DNA from: Pelagibaculum spongiae | GTDB taxonomy: Bacteria; Pseudomonadota; Gammaproteobacteria; Enterobacterales; Pelagibaculaceae | Assembly: GCF_003097315.1 (NCBI RefSeq) | Contig: NZ_QDDL01000007.1 | Span: 62,001-126,000, forward strand | Length of the DNA stretch: 64,000 bases | Direction of reading: 5' to 3' | Shown here: piece after piece, positions 5,205 through 62,603 of the stretch | Layout of the letters: the number at the start of each line of letters is the position of its first letter | Position numbering within the stretch: position 1 is the first letter of the stretch | Made by a program: the position numbers and the translations under genes | Notes under the pieces: generated by a model | Told to the model about the DNA's origin: nothing | Databases searched by the model: none | Seen by the model: the letters and a program-made list of their open reading frames with translations, nothing else

Positions 5205-6506
5205 CTAGCGACTCCAATATGCCTCTTCAAGGCTGTCTTCTCGCTCTGGCAGTCCACGTGATAAGCGTGGCGAGCTCTGCGCTAGCACTTGGTAACTAAC
5301 CCGGTTGGCATATTTACAAACCTGGGCGAATGACGAGTAAGTTAAATAACCGCGAGAATGCTTGCCTGAAGTCGGTAACACCCGACCATGAAAGTCTTTA
5401 GCTGCAACATCATGCACTACTGCAGCCAATGCACCATCGCCGGCACCATTAGTATTACTGATACGCTCAGGACCGCCCATGTAAGGATCGATCTGAGCAA
5501 ATACCTGCACTGGATCATTACAATATTTTTTGATCATTGGTCGGCTAAATTCATAACGATTAAAATCGCTAATTGAGCCAGAGCGAATTGGATTTGAAGT
5601 TTGACGCAAGGCATCTCGATCAGAATAACCTGAAAGGTATAAGCCTTCTGGGCCGGCAGTCAATAACACTAAATCAACAATTTTTAATAAATCCTGACTG
5701 GCCAACAACGGATCTGCATAACCGGTTAAGGCTTCTGCTTCACTTTCATTCATCGCAACAATATTGACATATTCTGCGATAAACTCATTAAATTCTTTTT
5801 TTCGCGCTTCAACCATTTGCCGCGAGCCCATCGTCAACACGACCGGCACTTCATTTTCTTTAGCAATTTTCGCTGCTTTTATTGTTGCTTGATAAATTGG
5901 CAAATCAGCATTCGCCAGAGTATAAGCACAAAGCAGTAAAGCTGAGCCATTAGCAACCTGATCATCGGGAATAAACTCTGGTGTCAAATGGTTCATTAAA
6001 CCAGGGCTGATACCAAAAGTACGCTCGCCATCCTGGGTGATTAACGCAAATGCGCGCCCTATAGAGCCGGGAACTGGTTGCAAGAAAGTTAAATCAACCT
6101 TGCTGCTGGTGTTGCATAGGTAACGATAAGAAGACGTTCCAATAACGATATTTTCGCTCATTACACCAAACTGAATTGAGCGGTCATCGGCCAACACCGA
6201 ATAATTGTGCAGGGTGTTGCCAATGGTGCCACCGGCATATTCTTCTTCAATAAGCTTATTATCGAGCAAATATGCGTATAAGCGGTTGGCTGCATCGTTA
6301 TCTGGCAGCAGCTGAGATATGCCTTTTCCCAAGCCAAAATCTTCTAATACACTGTCGCTCACATGGGCGGTGACATCGACAATATTTTGATCAATACCGG
6401 TAACATAGGTATTTACATGGCCAAAGCTCACGTTCTCACGATCAAAACGATTGTCTGCGTTAACTGGAAAATAATGCTTGATTTTCCGTTGTCCGGGAAA
6501 CTTCAT
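5205..6506 (-). CDS. gsk: Inosine/guanosine kinase
   Basis: A 433-residue PfkB-family kinase that phosphorylates inosine and guanosine to IMP and GMP in purine salvage. Start MKFPGQRKIKHYFPVNA, the FAGGTIGNT-type stretch (here YAGGTIGNTLHNYSVLADDRS), the anion-hole motif NTNGAGDGALAA near residues 351-362 and the C-terminus RGLPEREDSLEEAYW all match E. coli Gsk nearly residue for residue over these blocks. GGTGG lies before the ATG. Monocistronic, with a strong terminator. Length is that of the family. Confidence 0.96.
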   Translation of the reverse strand: MKFPGQRKIKHYFPVNADNRFDRENVSFGHVNTYVTGIDQNIVDVTAHVSDSVLEDFGLGKGISQLLPDNDAANRLYAYLLDNKLIEEEYAGGTIGNTLHNYSVLADDRSIQFGVMSENIVIGTSSYRYLCNTSSKVDLTFLQPVPGSIGRAFALITQDGERTFGISPGLMNHLTPEFIPDDQVANGSALLLCAYTLANADLPIYQATIKAAKIAKENEVPVVLTMGSRQMVEARKKEFNEFIAEYVNIVAMNESEAEALTGYADPLLASQDLLKIVDLVLLTAGPEGLYLSGYSDRDALRQTSNPIRSGSISDFNRYEFSRPMIKKYCNDPVQVFAQIDPYMGGPERISNTNGAGDGALAAVVHDVAAKDFHGRVLPTSGKHSRGYLTYSSFAQVCKYANRVSYQVLAQSSPRLSRGLPEREDSLEEAYWSR

Positions 6507-6889
6507 GGTCCACCTACCCTGACGGGACTACTGAGCTATCGGCGAATTTTACTGCCGACTAATATTTGCTGCCGACCAAGAGTTGATCAGGCATAGAATG
6601 GAGCGGAATTTTACTCGCCAGATTGGCTAAATGCTAGAGGGGTCAGATCAATTCAGGCTTGGTTTGATGGCGATTTACAAATGAGTTTGTTGCTACAACT
6701 AAGCTCTAAAGCAACCAAGCTTACCAGTTGTTATCTGCCAAACCGATTGGTTAAAAACACTAGCGCCGCAAGTAAGTTTGTAAACCGATATTCTTAAGAG
6801 TCAACCGCTGCATGACAGATTGAGTTTGCATGAAATAACGAATCCATTACACTTCGCCGCAATTGATTCAACCCTTGTAAGAGAAGCAC
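6507..6889. other. Intergenic region between divergent gsk and ppiC
   Basis: 383 bp without a credible gene. It must hold the promoters of both divergent genes, but I see no clear sigma-54 or sigma-28 motif and only weak -10-like sequences. AAGAGAAGC before the ppiC ATG is its likely ribosome site. Confidence 0.5.
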
Positions 6890-57813: not shown

Positions 57814-58113
57814 TTACATTTTCGCAAACTTCCTGAGCAGCTCATTTTCTCGCTTTAAATGCTGATTTTCTTGAATTAATAGCCTGAACTCAAACTCCTC
57901 CCCATTTGCTAAATTACTTATCTCTTCCATTGGTAAGTCTCTCTCCTTCAATTTGACCAATCCTTGTAAGCCAGTTCTTGCCCAACCTCTTAACGTCGCA
58001 ATGTTAACTCTTATCTCCTTCGAGGTTTTAATGAGGTCAGATCCGTTTCTTCCAAGGGCTCTCACAGTCTGTATTTTAAAATCAATACTGTACGTTTCTC
58101 TCTTTTTTTCCAT
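57814..58113 (-). CDS. Orphan IS3-type OrfA-like HTH protein
   Basis: About 99 residues: a transposase-8-type helix-turn-helix (YSIDFKIQTVRALGRNGSDLIKTSKEIRVNIATLRGWAR) followed by a C-terminal leucine-zipper-like helix (LIQENQHLKRENELLRKFAKM), the layout of IS3 OrfA. There is no OrfB, no frameshift signal and no terminal repeats, so it may be a remnant or a domesticated DNA-binding protein. I take the ATG at 58113 because the longer frame (to 58170) would translate a palindromic operator. The divergent XRE gene carries the same operator. Confidence 0.7.
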   Translation of the reverse strand: MEKKRETYSIDFKIQTVRALGRNGSDLIKTSKEIRVNIATLRGWARTGLQGLVKLKERDLPMEEISNLANGEEFEFRLLIQENQHLKRENELLRKFAKM

Positions 58114-58128
58114 ATCAGCACATACCAC

Positions 58129-58153
58129 GCAAACTAAGCAATACTTAGTTTGC
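58129..58153. promoter_or_regulatory. Operator palindrome 1 (upstream of the OrfA-like gene)
   Basis: GCAAACTAAG and CTTAGTTTGC, exact 10-bp arms with a 5-bp spacer. Core ACTAAG-N5-CTTAGT. Confidence 0.8.
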
Positions 58154-58251
58154 AATTCTCTTTTTTTCATCACGATCCCTTTGCCGATGGAAGGTAATTG
58201 ATTTTATTGATAAAAAAATCAATTATATCTGCTAAACAATTGAGCTACCTC

Positions 58252-58326: not shown

Positions 58327-58641
58327 TTGAGTATAGAGAGCGGCAACGATTCTCCTTTCAGCACTAGGCTGAAGGAAGCAAGAGAGAGAAAGAGTGTTTC
58401 TCAAAAGCAACTTGGTATTTCGATTGGGCTTGATCCATCAGTAGCGAGCACCAGAATGAATCAGTACGAAAAAGGCAGACATGAACCTGGCTTTTCGATT
58501 CTAAAAAAGTTGGCTGCGTATCTTGAAGTACCTACTGCCTACTTCTATTGCGAAGATGACCAGCTTGCTTCGCTGATGGTTAGCTATAACAACGCTAGTA
58601 AAGAGCTTCGCATGCAAGCAAGAAATTTATTTGATCATTGA
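58327..58641 (+). CDS. XRE-family transcriptional regulator
   Basis: About 104 residues with one helix-turn-helix of the Cro/C1 type (FSTRLKEARERKSVSQKQLGISIGLDPSVASTRMNQYEKGRHEPGFSILKKLAAYL), then PTAYFYCEDDQLASLM, a tail found in phage- and island-borne regulators. The frame opens at a TTG (58327) without a good ribosome site; no ATG is available. Two ACTAAG-type palindromes upstream suggest autorepression, and a third suggests control of the divergent OrfA-like gene. Confidence 0.82.
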   Translation: MSIESGNDSPFSTRLKEARERKSVSQKQLGISIGLDPSVASTRMNQYEKGRHEPGFSILKKLAAYLEVPTAYFYCEDDQLASLMVSYNNASKELRMQARNLFDH

Positions 58642-59805: not shown

Positions 59806-60426
59806 ATGTCTTCAACCACAGCAGTATCAGCCCCAAACTATGGCTACATTCAGGGTGAGTTGATTAGCTTGCGCGATGTTCAAGATTGTGACCTGTCCGA
59901 AATTTACCGAATCAGCTTTAACTCGCAAACTCAACACTTATGGGCACCTAACTTGCCGCTTGTGAGTTTTGAAAAATTTGCCGATCGACTGATGCGTCGG
60001 ATTCACCATCGTTGGGACCATTTTAAGGTGATTGTTCGCCGTAAAGACCAATGTATTTTGGGTTTTTCCTATTGCTATAACATTGCTTACGCCAACATGA
60101 CGAGCAATATATGTATCTGCATTGATAAAGCATACATGAATACATCTCAATGCTTACAATCAGCATATTTATATTTGTCACACCTATTTATCGATTTAAA
60201 ATACAGAAAACTATATTGTGAAGTGTTTGCTTATAACTACCAATGCCTGAGTATTTTGAAAAAGTTAGACTTTATACAAGAAGGGCGACTAAGTGAGCAT
60301 CAGTTCTGGAGTGAACAGTATTGGGATATGTTTATTTATTCGTTAAATCGCCGACAATTCTCTGAGTGTTGCCGTACTCGCTCACGACTTATAAAAAAAT
60401 TATCATGCCATCAACTGAAAAACTGA
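59806..60426 (+). CDS. GNAT-family N-acetyltransferase (RimJ/RimL-like)
   Basis: About 206 residues. ISLRDVQDCDLSEIYRISFN at the start, VIVRRKDQCILGFSYCYNIAYANMTSNICICIDKAYM in the core and YLSHLFIDLKYRKLYCEVFAYNYQCLSILKKLDFIQEGRL at the acetyl-CoA region match the ribosomal-protein acetyltransferase subgroup. ATG 59806 has GGGAG 5 nt upstream. It overlaps the radical SAM gene by 22 bp, so the products are co-expressed; it may acetylate the peptide made downstream, or serve as self-protection. Confidence 0.85.
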   Translation: MSSTTAVSAPNYGYIQGELISLRDVQDCDLSEIYRISFNSQTQHLWAPNLPLVSFEKFADRLMRRIHHRWDHFKVIVRRKDQCILGFSYCYNIAYANMTSNICICIDKAYMNTSQCLQSAYLYLSHLFIDLKYRKLYCEVFAYNYQCLSILKKLDFIQEGRLSEHQFWSEQYWDMFIYSLNRRQFSECCRTRSRLIKKLSCHQLKN

Positions 60427-62216
60427 TTCACCTACTCTATGTACCTACGATCTACTGCAATCTCGGTTGCCGTTACTGCTATTTGGGTAAACAGACAGAC
60501 CAAAGTTTATTAAAGAAAGACTTCGGCCGTGCATTATCAACATTGCAGGAAGGTGTTGATAAATTTCAGAAAGCTGGTTATACGCCATTTAATATTTCAC
60601 TGCATGGTGGAGAAGTTACTACTCTACCAGGTCATGTTCTGAATGATCTTTTTAGCTATATAAAAAATTATTACCAACGAGAAAAAGAAGTTCTGAACCG
60701 ACATGGTTTTAAGAAAAACCACCCGCACATTAAGACTAACTTGTATAACTTTGACAAGCACTACGACCTGATGCAAGAACAGCATGTTTCAATTAGTGCC
60801 AGCCTAGATTTACCGCTTTTTTTACATGATAAATACCGAGTGACCAAAAAGGGCGGATCAACACTTAAGCGAACCTTGAGCAATATCCGTTTGTTGGCAG
60901 ATTACCCATATAACAAAAAAATGTCCGCTGTAATTTATGCTGAGCATTTACAGTATGTTGATGAGATTATTAAAGATATCTGGTACCTTCATCAGCAGGT
61001 CGGTATTGATATGAATAATTTCAATTTCATGTTTGGATTTGAATCTTTAGACAATGCCGAAAAATATTTAGGCGAAGAAAACTTAGAAACTAAAGCGGTG
61101 AGTGACCAGGATCAAGTCTCATTCTACCAACAGCTAAAATCAGCGTTCACCGGCACTGAACTTGAACCCGGTTTTCACAAACATTGGTTTGATGAATTTA
61201 CGCCAAATTATTGTACCAATGCTTTTAACTGTGGAGAAAAGTTTTTTCTATTACAAAGTGATGGCGATATTTTTTCCTGTGTTCGCGGTCAAGGAAGTGC
61301 ACCTTTTCATTATGGCAATATTTTCAATGACAGTATTGAATCTATCATGGAAATTGCGAGTCAAAATATTAGCAATGTTCATCGCGCTCAAGGTTTACAT
61401 GAAGACTGTAAGCAATGCGAATATTTGTCGACCTGTCATACAGGTTGCGCTTATGTCAAACATGAACAGCAGTCTGCTAAGTCATATACCTGTGCACTGC
61501 AAAAGGAAATTTATCGAAACTATCCTGCGTTGTATCCAGCCACTCCTCAGGCAGAAAAAAAAGAAGCAGTAACGGTGTATACCGTGGACATGCACCCGCA
61601 CCTGATTTCAAGTGATCTTATTCCAGACCGCAAACGTATTATTCTGCCCAATGATTTATATGATCCAGGAAACAGCCTATTCGATCTGATTATGGCGGAT
61701 GAAACACTACAAAGCCTATATAGCTCCGAGCAAGTTAAGTTAAGTGTAAATGGGGCGTTTATCGATTTGCAGTCGCAGATTCTAAAAAGTAGTCGCGACA
61801 TACTTACGTTATGTGCAACTGATGATATAGCCATTCATATTCACAAGAACTTTTTGCAAGCTGCATGCGCTGACTCGATTCGCAATACGCTGCACTTACA
61901 GCTATTAAAAGATACTCCTGTTATCTATGGTGACGAGCAACGAACCAAGCAGGCCCACACTTATACTCTAGAAGTGTTTTCTGATCAGTTGCAGCACAGC
62001 AACTTAAATCAACCTGGCACCCTAAGTTTTGATTTAAAGCCGTTTTTAGCATTGAGCACCCATGCTTTTGAAGATAGTGTGATAAACAACCTACTGGTGA
62101 CCACCCATTTCTTGCGACGTTATCACTATGAAAAACAAAGAAATAATGCCTTTTATCATATTCAGGCGATTAACTTGCCATTTCAAAATATCGAGTTCTA
62201 CTGGATTAAGGAATAA
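60405..62216 (+). CDS. Radical SAM/SPASM peptide-modifying enzyme
   Basis: About 603 residues. The [4Fe-4S]-SAM motif is CNLGCRYC (Cys18, 22, 25), with HGGE (68-70) typical of SPASM enzymes. SPASM cysteines are visible at about 270, 276, 292, 335, 338, 344, 348 and 363 (FNCGEKFFLLQSDGDIFSC and CKQCEYLSTCHTGC), enough for two auxiliary clusters. A further ~220-residue C-terminal domain resembles nothing I recognise. Such enzymes make C-C, C-S or C-O cross-links, or epimerise residues, in ribosomal peptides. The next gene, 3 bp downstream, is the likely substrate. No ribosome site; translation probably coupled to the acetyltransferase. Confidence 0.9.
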   Translation: MPSTEKLIHLLYVPTIYCNLGCRYCYLGKQTDQSLLKKDFGRALSTLQEGVDKFQKAGYTPFNISLHGGEVTTLPGHVLNDLFSYIKNYYQREKEVLNRHGFKKNHPHIKTNLYNFDKHYDLMQEQHVSISASLDLPLFLHDKYRVTKKGGSTLKRTLSNIRLLADYPYNKKMSAVIYAEHLQYVDEIIKDIWYLHQQVGIDMNNFNFMFGFESLDNAEKYLGEENLETKAVSDQDQVSFYQQLKSAFTGTELEPGFHKHWFDEFTPNYCTNAFNCGEKFFLLQSDGDIFSCVRGQGSAPFHYGNIFNDSIESIMEIASQNISNVHRAQGLHEDCKQCEYLSTCHTGCAYVKHEQQSAKSYTCALQKEIYRNYPALYPATPQAEKKEAVTVYTVDMHPHLISSDLIPDRKRIILPNDLYDPGNSLFDLIMADETLQSLYSSEQVKLSVNGAFIDLQSQILKSSRDILTLCATDDIAIHIHKNFLQAACADSIRNTLHLQLLKDTPVIYGDEQRTKQAHTYTLEVFSDQLQHSNLNQPGTLSFDLKPFLALSTHAFEDSVINNLLVTTHFLRRYHYEKQRNNAFYHIQAINLPFQNIEFYWIKE

Positions 62217-62219
62217 ATA

Positions 62220-62603
62220 ATGCTAAATCACCACACTCAGGTTCATTCTTTTTTGACTTATCTTAATGCTCCTGCTTCTGATGCTTTAGTTGAAGCGTTG
62301 CATACTTTTATTGACCATCGTTTGATCAGTCCAAAACGAGAAGTAATTTTTGATCGTGGCCAGTTAATGTTTATTGAAAATGGTAAGCAGATGGCAAGCC
62401 ATACTCTTGAATCGAATAATGACCGAGTGGTGAAGTTTGATGGTCAGCATATTCAGGAAATTAATCCTTATGCCTACCTCAACACTACAGATTATCAAAT
62501 GAAAGGCGATAATGCTTCAAGTGGGCGTCGTTCAAGCGGCAATAGTTCAAGTGGTATAGGTAGCAATAACAATAACAATAACAATAATAACAATAACGGG
62601 TAA
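62220..62603 (+). CDS. Candidate RiPP precursor with Ser/Gly-rich and poly-Asn tail
   Basis: A 127-residue protein beginning 3 bp after the radical SAM stop, with AAGGA 7 nt upstream. Residues 1-95 look like a folded leader (helical, with EVIFDRGQLMFIENGKQMA and NPYAYLNTTDYQMKG). Residues 96-115 are Ser/Gly-rich (NASSGRRSSGNSSSGIGS); residues 116-126 are eleven asparagines, then a C-terminal Gly. No signal peptide or membrane segment. Position and the abrupt change to low complexity point to a leader-core precursor; no transporter or protease gene is adjacent. I recognise no RiPP class. Confidence 0.75.
   Translation: MLNHHTQVHSFLTYLNAPASDALVEALHTFIDHRLISPKREVIFDRGQLMFIENGKQMASHTLESNNDRVVKFDGQHIQEINPYAYLNTTDYQMKGDNASSGRRSSGNSSSGIGSNNNNNNNNNNNG
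62562..62597 (+). repeat. AAT/AAC microsatellite coding for poly-Asn
   Basis: About eleven Asn codons alternating AAT and AAC (hexamer AATAAC). Slippage by three or six bases would change tail length without breaking the frame. Confidence 0.85.

Follow-up and report, generated by a model that had tools for sequence, protein, structure and literature searches.

What does a radical S-adenosylmethionine (SAM) enzyme do beside a small protein that ends in an unbroken run of asparagines? The question is raised by a locus near the end of a 64,000-nucleotide stretch of Pelagibaculum spongiae DNA (contig NZ_QDDL01000007.1, positions 62,001 to 126,000; the whole stretch is called the window hereafter). 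We propose that the enzyme is a dedicated radical SAM/SPASM maturase that oxidizes or cross-links the C-terminal Asn tail of its partner protein, a reading to which we assign a probability of about 0.68. An earlier sequence-only reading of the window had described three tightly coupled genes, an enzyme with an intact Cx3Cx2C motif, a full set of SPASM cysteines and a C-terminal extension of about 220 residues, and a peptide composed of a leader-like body, a Ser/Gly stretch and an Asn11-Gly tail. Each of these descriptions held on re-examination, that of the peptide by translation and by a structural model. The parts of the locus, in positions of the window, are as follows.

59806..60426, plus strand: GNAT-like N-acetyltransferase gene, accessory and not core
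60405..62216, plus strand: radical SAM/SPASM maturase gene, 603 amino acids (aa)
60456..60479, plus strand: CxxxCxxC radical SAM cluster motif (C18, C22 and C25), invariant in 53 of 53 aligned rows
61212..61493, plus strand: SPASM region with eight invariant Cys (C270 to C363) and C292-x-R294-x-Q296
61542..62213, plus strand: family-specific C-terminal domain, aa about 380-603, without Pfam match; the model is confident, with many strands from about residue 420
62115..62204, plus strand: conserved C-terminal motif, aa 571-600, around NAFYHxQxxNLPF, part of which was used as a genome scan pattern
62220..62603, plus strand: gene of the Asn-tailed substrate or precursor protein, 127 aa
62220..62489, plus strand: leader-like body, aa 1-90, modelled as two helices followed by a beta meander
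62490..62564, plus strand: Ser/Gly-rich linker, aa 91-115, with a predicted local distance difference test score (pLDDT) below 50 at residues 91-112
62565..62600, plus strand: Asn11-Gly tail, aa 116-127 (N116-N126, G127), encoded by mixed AAT and AAC codons

The enzyme gene starts inside the end of the GNAT-like gene, with an overlap of 22 bp, and a gap of 3 bp separates its stop codon from the start of the peptide gene. In the model of the window peptide, six of the nine ten-residue blocks of the body had a pLDDT above 90, a level reached by most blocks between residues 11 and 80, and the linker was disordered. A fold search of solved structures with the peptide gave no convincing match (best E 0.75; best Z 4.4 in a second search).

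The pairing of the enzyme with an Asn tail was examined across relatives. A scan of genome contigs with an eight-row alignment found 87 relatives of the enzyme, 80 of which were kept; the loci kept numbered 79. Tracts were counted as runs of five or more AAT or AAC codons, (AAY)5+, on both strands, and the near zone was set to reach from 1.6 kb upstream to 1.2 kb downstream of the enzyme. The count was made on 76 non-phage loci, a set that leaves out six phage loci (L095, L098, L101, L105, L112 and L116) as well as the window, L010 and L011; the latter two are apparently the same genomes as L034 and L083, respectively. As many as 71 such runs were found in the 196 kb near the enzyme, versus a single one in the 712 kb elsewhere in the loci. 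A plus-strand run lay near the enzyme in 68 of the 76 loci. At 65 of these 68, the reading frame that gives Asn stays open over 40 or more codons and comes to its end no more than 12 codons later. Among the 65 in-frame tails, the longest run ranged from 5 to 21 Asn, and Gly was the last residue in 56. As for the remaining three, the contig of L075 ends in the run, and the frames of L085 and L086 are broken upstream by TGA. Six of the eight loci without a run lie at a contig edge (L038, L076, L081, L082, L088 and L096), L076 stopping inside four Asn codons. No open reading frame (ORF) with at least four Asn in its last ten residues was present at ten loci that had weak radical SAM matches only (L002-L009, L012 and L013, from seven genomes).

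Genomes belonging to the same class were also sampled, 369 in all. The enzyme was found at E below 1e-100 in three of them, the window's own included; one of these carriers is split over two contigs, and both carriers besides the window's genome had an adjoining Asn-tailed ORF. Two further genomes with weak matches (E 1e-11 to 1e-12) were not counted as family members. An (AAY)8 tract occurred in 25 of the 369 genomes, with all three enzyme carriers among them (Fisher p 3e-4); in the 22 genomes that had such tracts and no enzyme, the tracts shown were partly pure repeats. These data support well that the enzyme and a poly-Asn-tailed protein form a real, widespread and conserved pair. As expected of a ribosomally synthesized and post-translationally modified peptide (RiPP) system, the precursor gene lies beside the modifying enzyme and is conserved together with it; the absence of the peptide beside enzyme homologues elsewhere, which the sequence-only reading had named as a sign against its RiPP proposal, was not observed.

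The partner proteins differ between lineages. Most Gram-negative bodies fall into one cluster of 42 loci including the window (40 aligned), in which a helical N-terminal part is followed by strands around LYF and FDGxKI, by YLG, by a variable linker and by the Asn run, mostly closed by G, GNNG or GNNNG. Those of Bacillota (12 aligned) end in N, R, H or G, and their bodies are related to the Gram-negative ones when the profiles are compared by hhalign over 68 body columns (98%, E 2.4e-13; identity 13%). The partners in four Corynebacterium loci look dissimilar and are encoded upstream of the enzyme; an S(F/Y)xxGW motif was seen by eye before their run. The feature common to the Gram-negative, Bacillota, Corynebacterium and phage partners is the Asn ending. 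The tail is the most constant part of the system, while the body and the neighbours vary. Recurring pairs with conserved leaders and variable low-complexity tails had been named as the pattern to look for; the pairs and the related bodies in Gram-negative and Bacillota loci were indeed found, but the constancy lies foremost in the tail. Precursor matches to EED and to maltose-binding protein fall on the Asn run, and GldI matched one of 40 members.

In Campylobacter-type prophages, the Asn ending is carried by a tail fibre. In a Mu-like prophage of Campylobacter coli, the enzyme gene lies within the tail cluster, the order being fibre gene, 211-aa gene, enzyme gene and DUF1353 gene. The fibres of all 14 loci of this type (L015-L025, L101, L112 and L155) end in NNNNY, GNNF, GNNS or CNNNNN, and the preceding sequence differs between these types; Campylobacter is named as the host for some of the 14 loci, several others are viral contigs that carry no host label, and a number of the 14 are near-identical. 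We also examined five related fibres, among 16 Campylobacter and Helicobacter records listed, that have no enzyme gene in the fetched stretch. None of the five ends in Asn (MELR in three, RYS and EFS). Their first 152 residues are about 93% (three Campylobacter) or 72-75% (two Helicobacter) identical, and the next gene encodes a DUF4376 protein or is another short ORF. Judged from these sequences, the C-terminus of the fibre and the gene that follows it seem to vary jointly. According to PMC7882524, a CJIE1-like prophage binds its host through the H-fibre, which in the construct tested there works only with the downstream DUF4376 chaperone. That H-fibre occupies the same place in the tail cluster and has an N-terminus about 93% identical over 152 aa, whereas the enzyme prophages carry the 211-aa gene and the radical SAM gene after the fibre, and their fibre ends in Asn. 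In PHROGs, the phage enzyme corresponds to phrog_1802, a radical SAM domain-containing protein of the category "other".

Two minor observations concern these fibres. The near-identical fibres of L015-L020 and L155 differ in one window of about seven codons, located about 40 codons before the gene end; a diversity-generating retroelement behind this variable site was considered and rejected, because the changes extend beyond adenines. On the viral contig L105, an ORF upstream of the enzyme (5352-6767) contains many LDSLYADK repeats and possibly encodes a long fibre shaft.

The Asn tail could instead be a handle for the enzyme or a solubility element, with the chemistry taking place in the body (for example, at FDGxKIxxIDxxYYLG) or in the Ser/Gly linker. 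In favour of this alternative, the Gram-negative precursors share a conserved body, which is related to that of Bacillota, and many tails are preceded by a Ser/Gly linker. However, by eye the Corynebacterium partners and the phage fibres do not look like the body, yet they retain the Asn ending, and the linker is not constant; on balance, we regard a modified body or linker as unlikely. Several further points weigh against a modification of the tail. With only two to five Asn in the prophage endings, a long homopolymer cannot be a general requirement; the last residue of these endings is often aromatic, as it is not in the bacterial tails. The enzyme of the phage relative L105 lies near apparent tail genes and has no Asn ending nearby. 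In two Campylobacter prophage copies (L024/L098 and L101/L116), the enzyme frame is broken and the fibre still ends in GNNS or GNNF. L027 has no partner, with a DDE transposase directly after the enzyme, and in L099 the body is kept but lacks a tail, its frame continuing into the next gene. Pairing, tail constancy and enzyme architecture are seen directly; that a modification takes place, that it affects the tail, where and through which bond it does so, and what it serves, is what we infer.

The architecture of the enzyme bears on which chemistry is plausible. The window enzyme belongs to the radical SAM superfamily and carries a SPASM domain, as seen from its CxxxCxxC motif, its SPASM cysteines and a matching fold. 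Eleven Cys are invariant in all 53 aligned rows: the three of the radical SAM motif (C18, C22 and C25) and eight in the SPASM region (C270, C276, C292, C335, C338, C344, C348 and C363). The latter are in register with the anaerobic sulfatase-maturating enzyme (anSME), in which we take the matching eight to be ligands of the auxiliary clusters, and none of the eleven is spare. The SPASM model TIGR04085 was passed with 42.3 bits versus a cut-off of 27. The window enzyme matched 47 NCBIfam families, and among the best 25 only the general SPASM model lay above its cut-off; the best profile among these was that of the dynobactin maturase DynA (NF041298), with 87.7 bits versus a cut-off of 450. The cut-offs of GrrM, HxsB, XyeB, PapB, FxsB, DarE and other curated maturases were not reached by the window enzyme or by four relatives, among the best 25 families for each (24 for L098). 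These relatives, from Archangium, a Lachnospiraceae, Corynebacterium and Campylobacter, gave the same NCBIfam result as the window enzyme. The earlier statement that the core could not be matched to known radical SAM RiPP classes is thereby supported, on the side of the enzyme, among the families listed.

An AlphaFold2 model of the enzyme (mean pLDDT 91.8, predicted template modelling score 0.69) was compared with solved structures by VIA-align. The nearest fold was anSMEcpe (Z 28.2, root-mean-square deviation (rmsd) 3.6, 338 residues aligned), followed among other enzymes by ChlB (Z 26.2, rmsd 3.7, 337 aligned); the epimerase EpeE was also in the list (best Z 15.6). The anSMEcpe and ChlB matches cover residues 6-378 of the enzyme, the VIA-align rows span residues 2-377, and the C-terminal domain lies outside them. 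The roughly 220 residues after the SPASM part had no Pfam match up to E 1. The radical SAM proteins retrieved from a viral structure library had 571 residues or fewer and template modelling scores no higher than 0.46 on the length of the model, and PADLOC gave weak viperin matches to the radical SAM part and nothing else.

Both auxiliary clusters would be fully Cys-ligated, which fits an electron-accepting role in a two-electron oxidation. The enzyme of dynobactin acts on an Asn side chain. For these two reasons, and because epimerization would lack a conserved Cys donor, oxidation or cross-linking at the Asn carbons of the tail appears to be the preferable chemistry. In the mechanism that we propose, the folded body of the substrate would serve as a docking domain, or leader, and the Cx3Cx2C cluster would cleave SAM to a 5'-deoxyadenosyl radical that abstracts hydrogen from successive Asn of the flexible tail. 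The second electron would pass to the two auxiliary clusters, so that each site would be oxidized by two electrons overall, most probably at Cbeta of the side chain, and the end product could be either cross-links within the tail (C-N or C-C) or dehydro-Asn. The result would probably be a stiffened or reactive tail retained on its carrier, namely a small protein beside membrane partners in bacteria and the tip of the tail fibre in Campylobacter-type prophages, with the GNAT as an optional helper.

A long run of a single residue would equally suit a processive, pattern-making chemistry such as that of an epimerase producing an alternate D-Asn, beta-helical tail, as in polytheonamide-type peptides, and EpeE does appear in the fold list. 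EpeE needs a hydrogen-donor Cys apart from its cluster ligands. In the present family, however, the 11 invariant Cys are all assigned to clusters and none is left as a donor, although other donors are possible, and both fold and profile are nearer to oxidizing enzymes. Epimerization therefore appears improbable.

Instead of serving as a protein tail, the tract might work at the level of DNA or RNA, for instance as a slippage switch or a stalling signal. Simple repeats such as this one are known for slippage. A slippage tract would be homogeneous, whereas the last 25 codons of the 65 ORFs comprise 477 AAC and 437 AAT in irregular order, at a locus GC content of 24-67%, which suggests that selection acts on the protein. 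A DNA microsatellite would likewise be homogeneous, as is the (AAC)n found elsewhere in the P. spongiae genome, and this argues that the Asn run is kept as protein. In addition, translation of the tract at 65 loci gives Asn up to no more than 12 codons before the stop, mostly with a last Gly, and we consider a role of the nucleic acid itself very improbable. The other (AAC)n tract was met in an exact search of the 5-Mb genome of the window for (AAY)8, which found two tracts, the window tail and this pure repeat; because the latter is read as poly-Gln, a second Asn-tailed protein in the genome was rejected for exact runs of eight. The tract belongs to a 392-aa ORF (L121:411-1589, contig C11 near 100435) with a long poly-Gln near its C-terminus, and it is likely a slippage tract.

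The enzyme might also be of the formylglycine-forming, sulfatase-maturase-like kind, with a remote protein as its substrate and the Asn-tailed neighbour unrelated. This is strongly disfavoured, in spite of anSME being the closest solved structure by sequence and fold, because the window enzyme reaches only 80.9 bits versus a cut-off of 349 with the anaerobic sulfatase maturase model TIGR03942, because the residue after C292, at the site of Asp277, which we presume to be the catalytic Asp of anSME, is V (28 rows), P (18) or H (7) in all 53 rows and is followed by an invariant Arg, and because the tail is close by in 68 of 76 loci; the sequence-only reading had named membership of this group as an outcome that would speak against it.

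Compared with known systems, the enzyme thus resembles anSMEcpe in its fold (over residues 6-378) and in the eight SPASM-region Cys, and differs from it in lacking the catalytic Asp, in its extra C-terminal domain and in having an Asn-tailed neighbour where anSME has a remote sulfatase. DynA provides the best profile among the 25, but the score is far below the cut-off, and the window tail has no aromatic partner residue. The cores of cyclophane synthases contain aromatic residues, unlike the bacterial Asn tails, whereas the radical SAM/SPASM fold is shared, as seen with ChlB. Reference titles in PMC12636437 indicate that cyclophane synthases cross-link a leader-borne peptide. GrrM/OscB, HxsB, XyeB and PapB are alike in that a maturase lies beside a precursor with a special C-terminus; the window enzyme is nevertheless far below the cut-offs among the families listed. 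We know of no curated radical SAM RiPP maturase for an Asn-homopolymer substrate.

Radical SAM maturase and precursor pairs are already known as a kind, and it is the Asn-only and tail-fibre substrates that would make the chemistry new, if shown. In the open-licence literature of PubMed Central, nothing was found on radical SAM enzymes with Asn-tailed substrates or on radical SAM-modified fibres, an absence that carries little weight. We hold it about evenly balanced that a single radical SAM family modifies C-terminal Asn tails in many phyla and in phages, where the substrate would be a receptor-binding fibre that in related phages has a fibre chaperone, and that this has not been described before. 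If true, no earlier case of a virion structural protein modified by a radical SAM enzyme, nor of a maturase acting on a homopolymeric residue tract, is known to us. As far as we know, the substrate is unlike those of known radical SAM maturases, as the bacterial tails have neither Cys nor aromatic residues but only Asn with a closing Gly or a few other residues, and the pair offers a clear-cut and testable enzyme-substrate system. Cross-linking or oxidation of the tail would be a new reaction, and with one repeated residue its chemistry would be largely readable by mass. The prophage version, if correct, would mean that phages finish a tail fibre by radical chemistry, which bears on fibre maturation and on host binding by Campylobacter phages.

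The genes around the pair vary. Among 83 loci, the third gene encoded a small FP(T/S)NARK protein in 17, a protein of about 270 aa in 24, a BspA-type leucine-rich-repeat protein in 18 and a GNAT in 4, and 8 of the 18 BspA-type loci had a further zinc-ribbon protein. To the eye, the FP(T/S)NARK and about-270-aa proteins resemble membrane proteins, and neither was convincingly matched in Pfam; the leucine-rich-repeat and GNAT types were clear Pfam hits and the zinc ribbon a weak one. The four GNAT loci (window, L027, L031 and L038) were assigned by sequence clustering, a count that includes loci cut upstream by a contig end and in which unlike GNATs may be missed. The GNAT-like protein of the window matched GNAT models weakly, with Pfam Acetyltransf_3 at E 6e-4 and NCBIfam spermidine N1-acetyltransferase at E 5.8e-8, both below the cut-off. 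The GNAT is an accessory, an optional helper and not a core gene. The RiPP candidate put forward by the sequence-only reading is thereby strengthened as a conserved pair of enzyme and Asn-tailed protein in at least six phyla, and loses the GNAT as a core member.

An enzyme tree was built from 75 rows longer than 540 aa, and 10 unlabelled rows were left out of the label test. The six labels, with phage and Corynebacterium counted, need five changes, which is the minimum, and some clades mix phyla. Together, the neighbour types and the tree suggest that cassettes are passed from one lineage to another and that their partner is often membrane-located. Among 12 neighbour clusters common to at least four loci, within about 4.5 kb of the enzyme, none was protease-like, unclustered or more distant genes being outside the scope of this count; one cluster of ABC-type ATPases was present in 5 loci, 1.4-4.3 kb from the enzyme. 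The lack of a recurring protease near the enzyme hints that the product stays on its carrier. With the Asn ending of Campylobacter-type prophages placed on a structural tail-fibre protein as well, a modification retained on its protein is at least as likely as a released peptide.

The enzyme family is rare and sparse, and is found in at least six phyla and in phages. In a phylum-wide sample searched at E 1e-60, it was detected in 1 of 398 genomes, the window's own. The locus titles comprise Pseudomonadota, Thermodesulfobacteriota, Myxococcota, Bacillota, Actinomycetota (Corynebacterium) and Campylobacterota, and one locus is binned as Bacteroidia; many are metagenome-assembled. Protein searches of plasmid and phage collections gave one record each that matched most of the enzyme, and a viral scan with the window enzyme alone as the query found no relatives. 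In L085 and L086 (L085:8001-9713, CAMVNA010000010.1, and L086:8001-9716, CAMOEC010000020.1), which are uncultured and have Bacillota copies as their nearest relatives, the enzyme frame is interrupted only by TGA, at 5 and 11 codons. Gly is frequent in the homologues at these sites, and at several sites it is present in every one of the 71 rows compared; UGA looks like a glycine codon in these two sequences. PMC8629427 describes UGA read as Gly in bacteria for Absconditabacteria and Gracilibacteria.

In the window, FlgA and a CheW/response-regulator gene lie upstream of the locus. A flagellar role was rejected, because a weak transposase match and a regulator intervene and because the neighbours of the relatives differ. 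The former is a minus-strand ORF at 57814-58173, between the flagellar genes and the locus, that weakly matches HTH_Tnp_1 (E 0.0028, below the cut-off), and the latter, a helix-turn-helix regulator at 58327, adjoins it.

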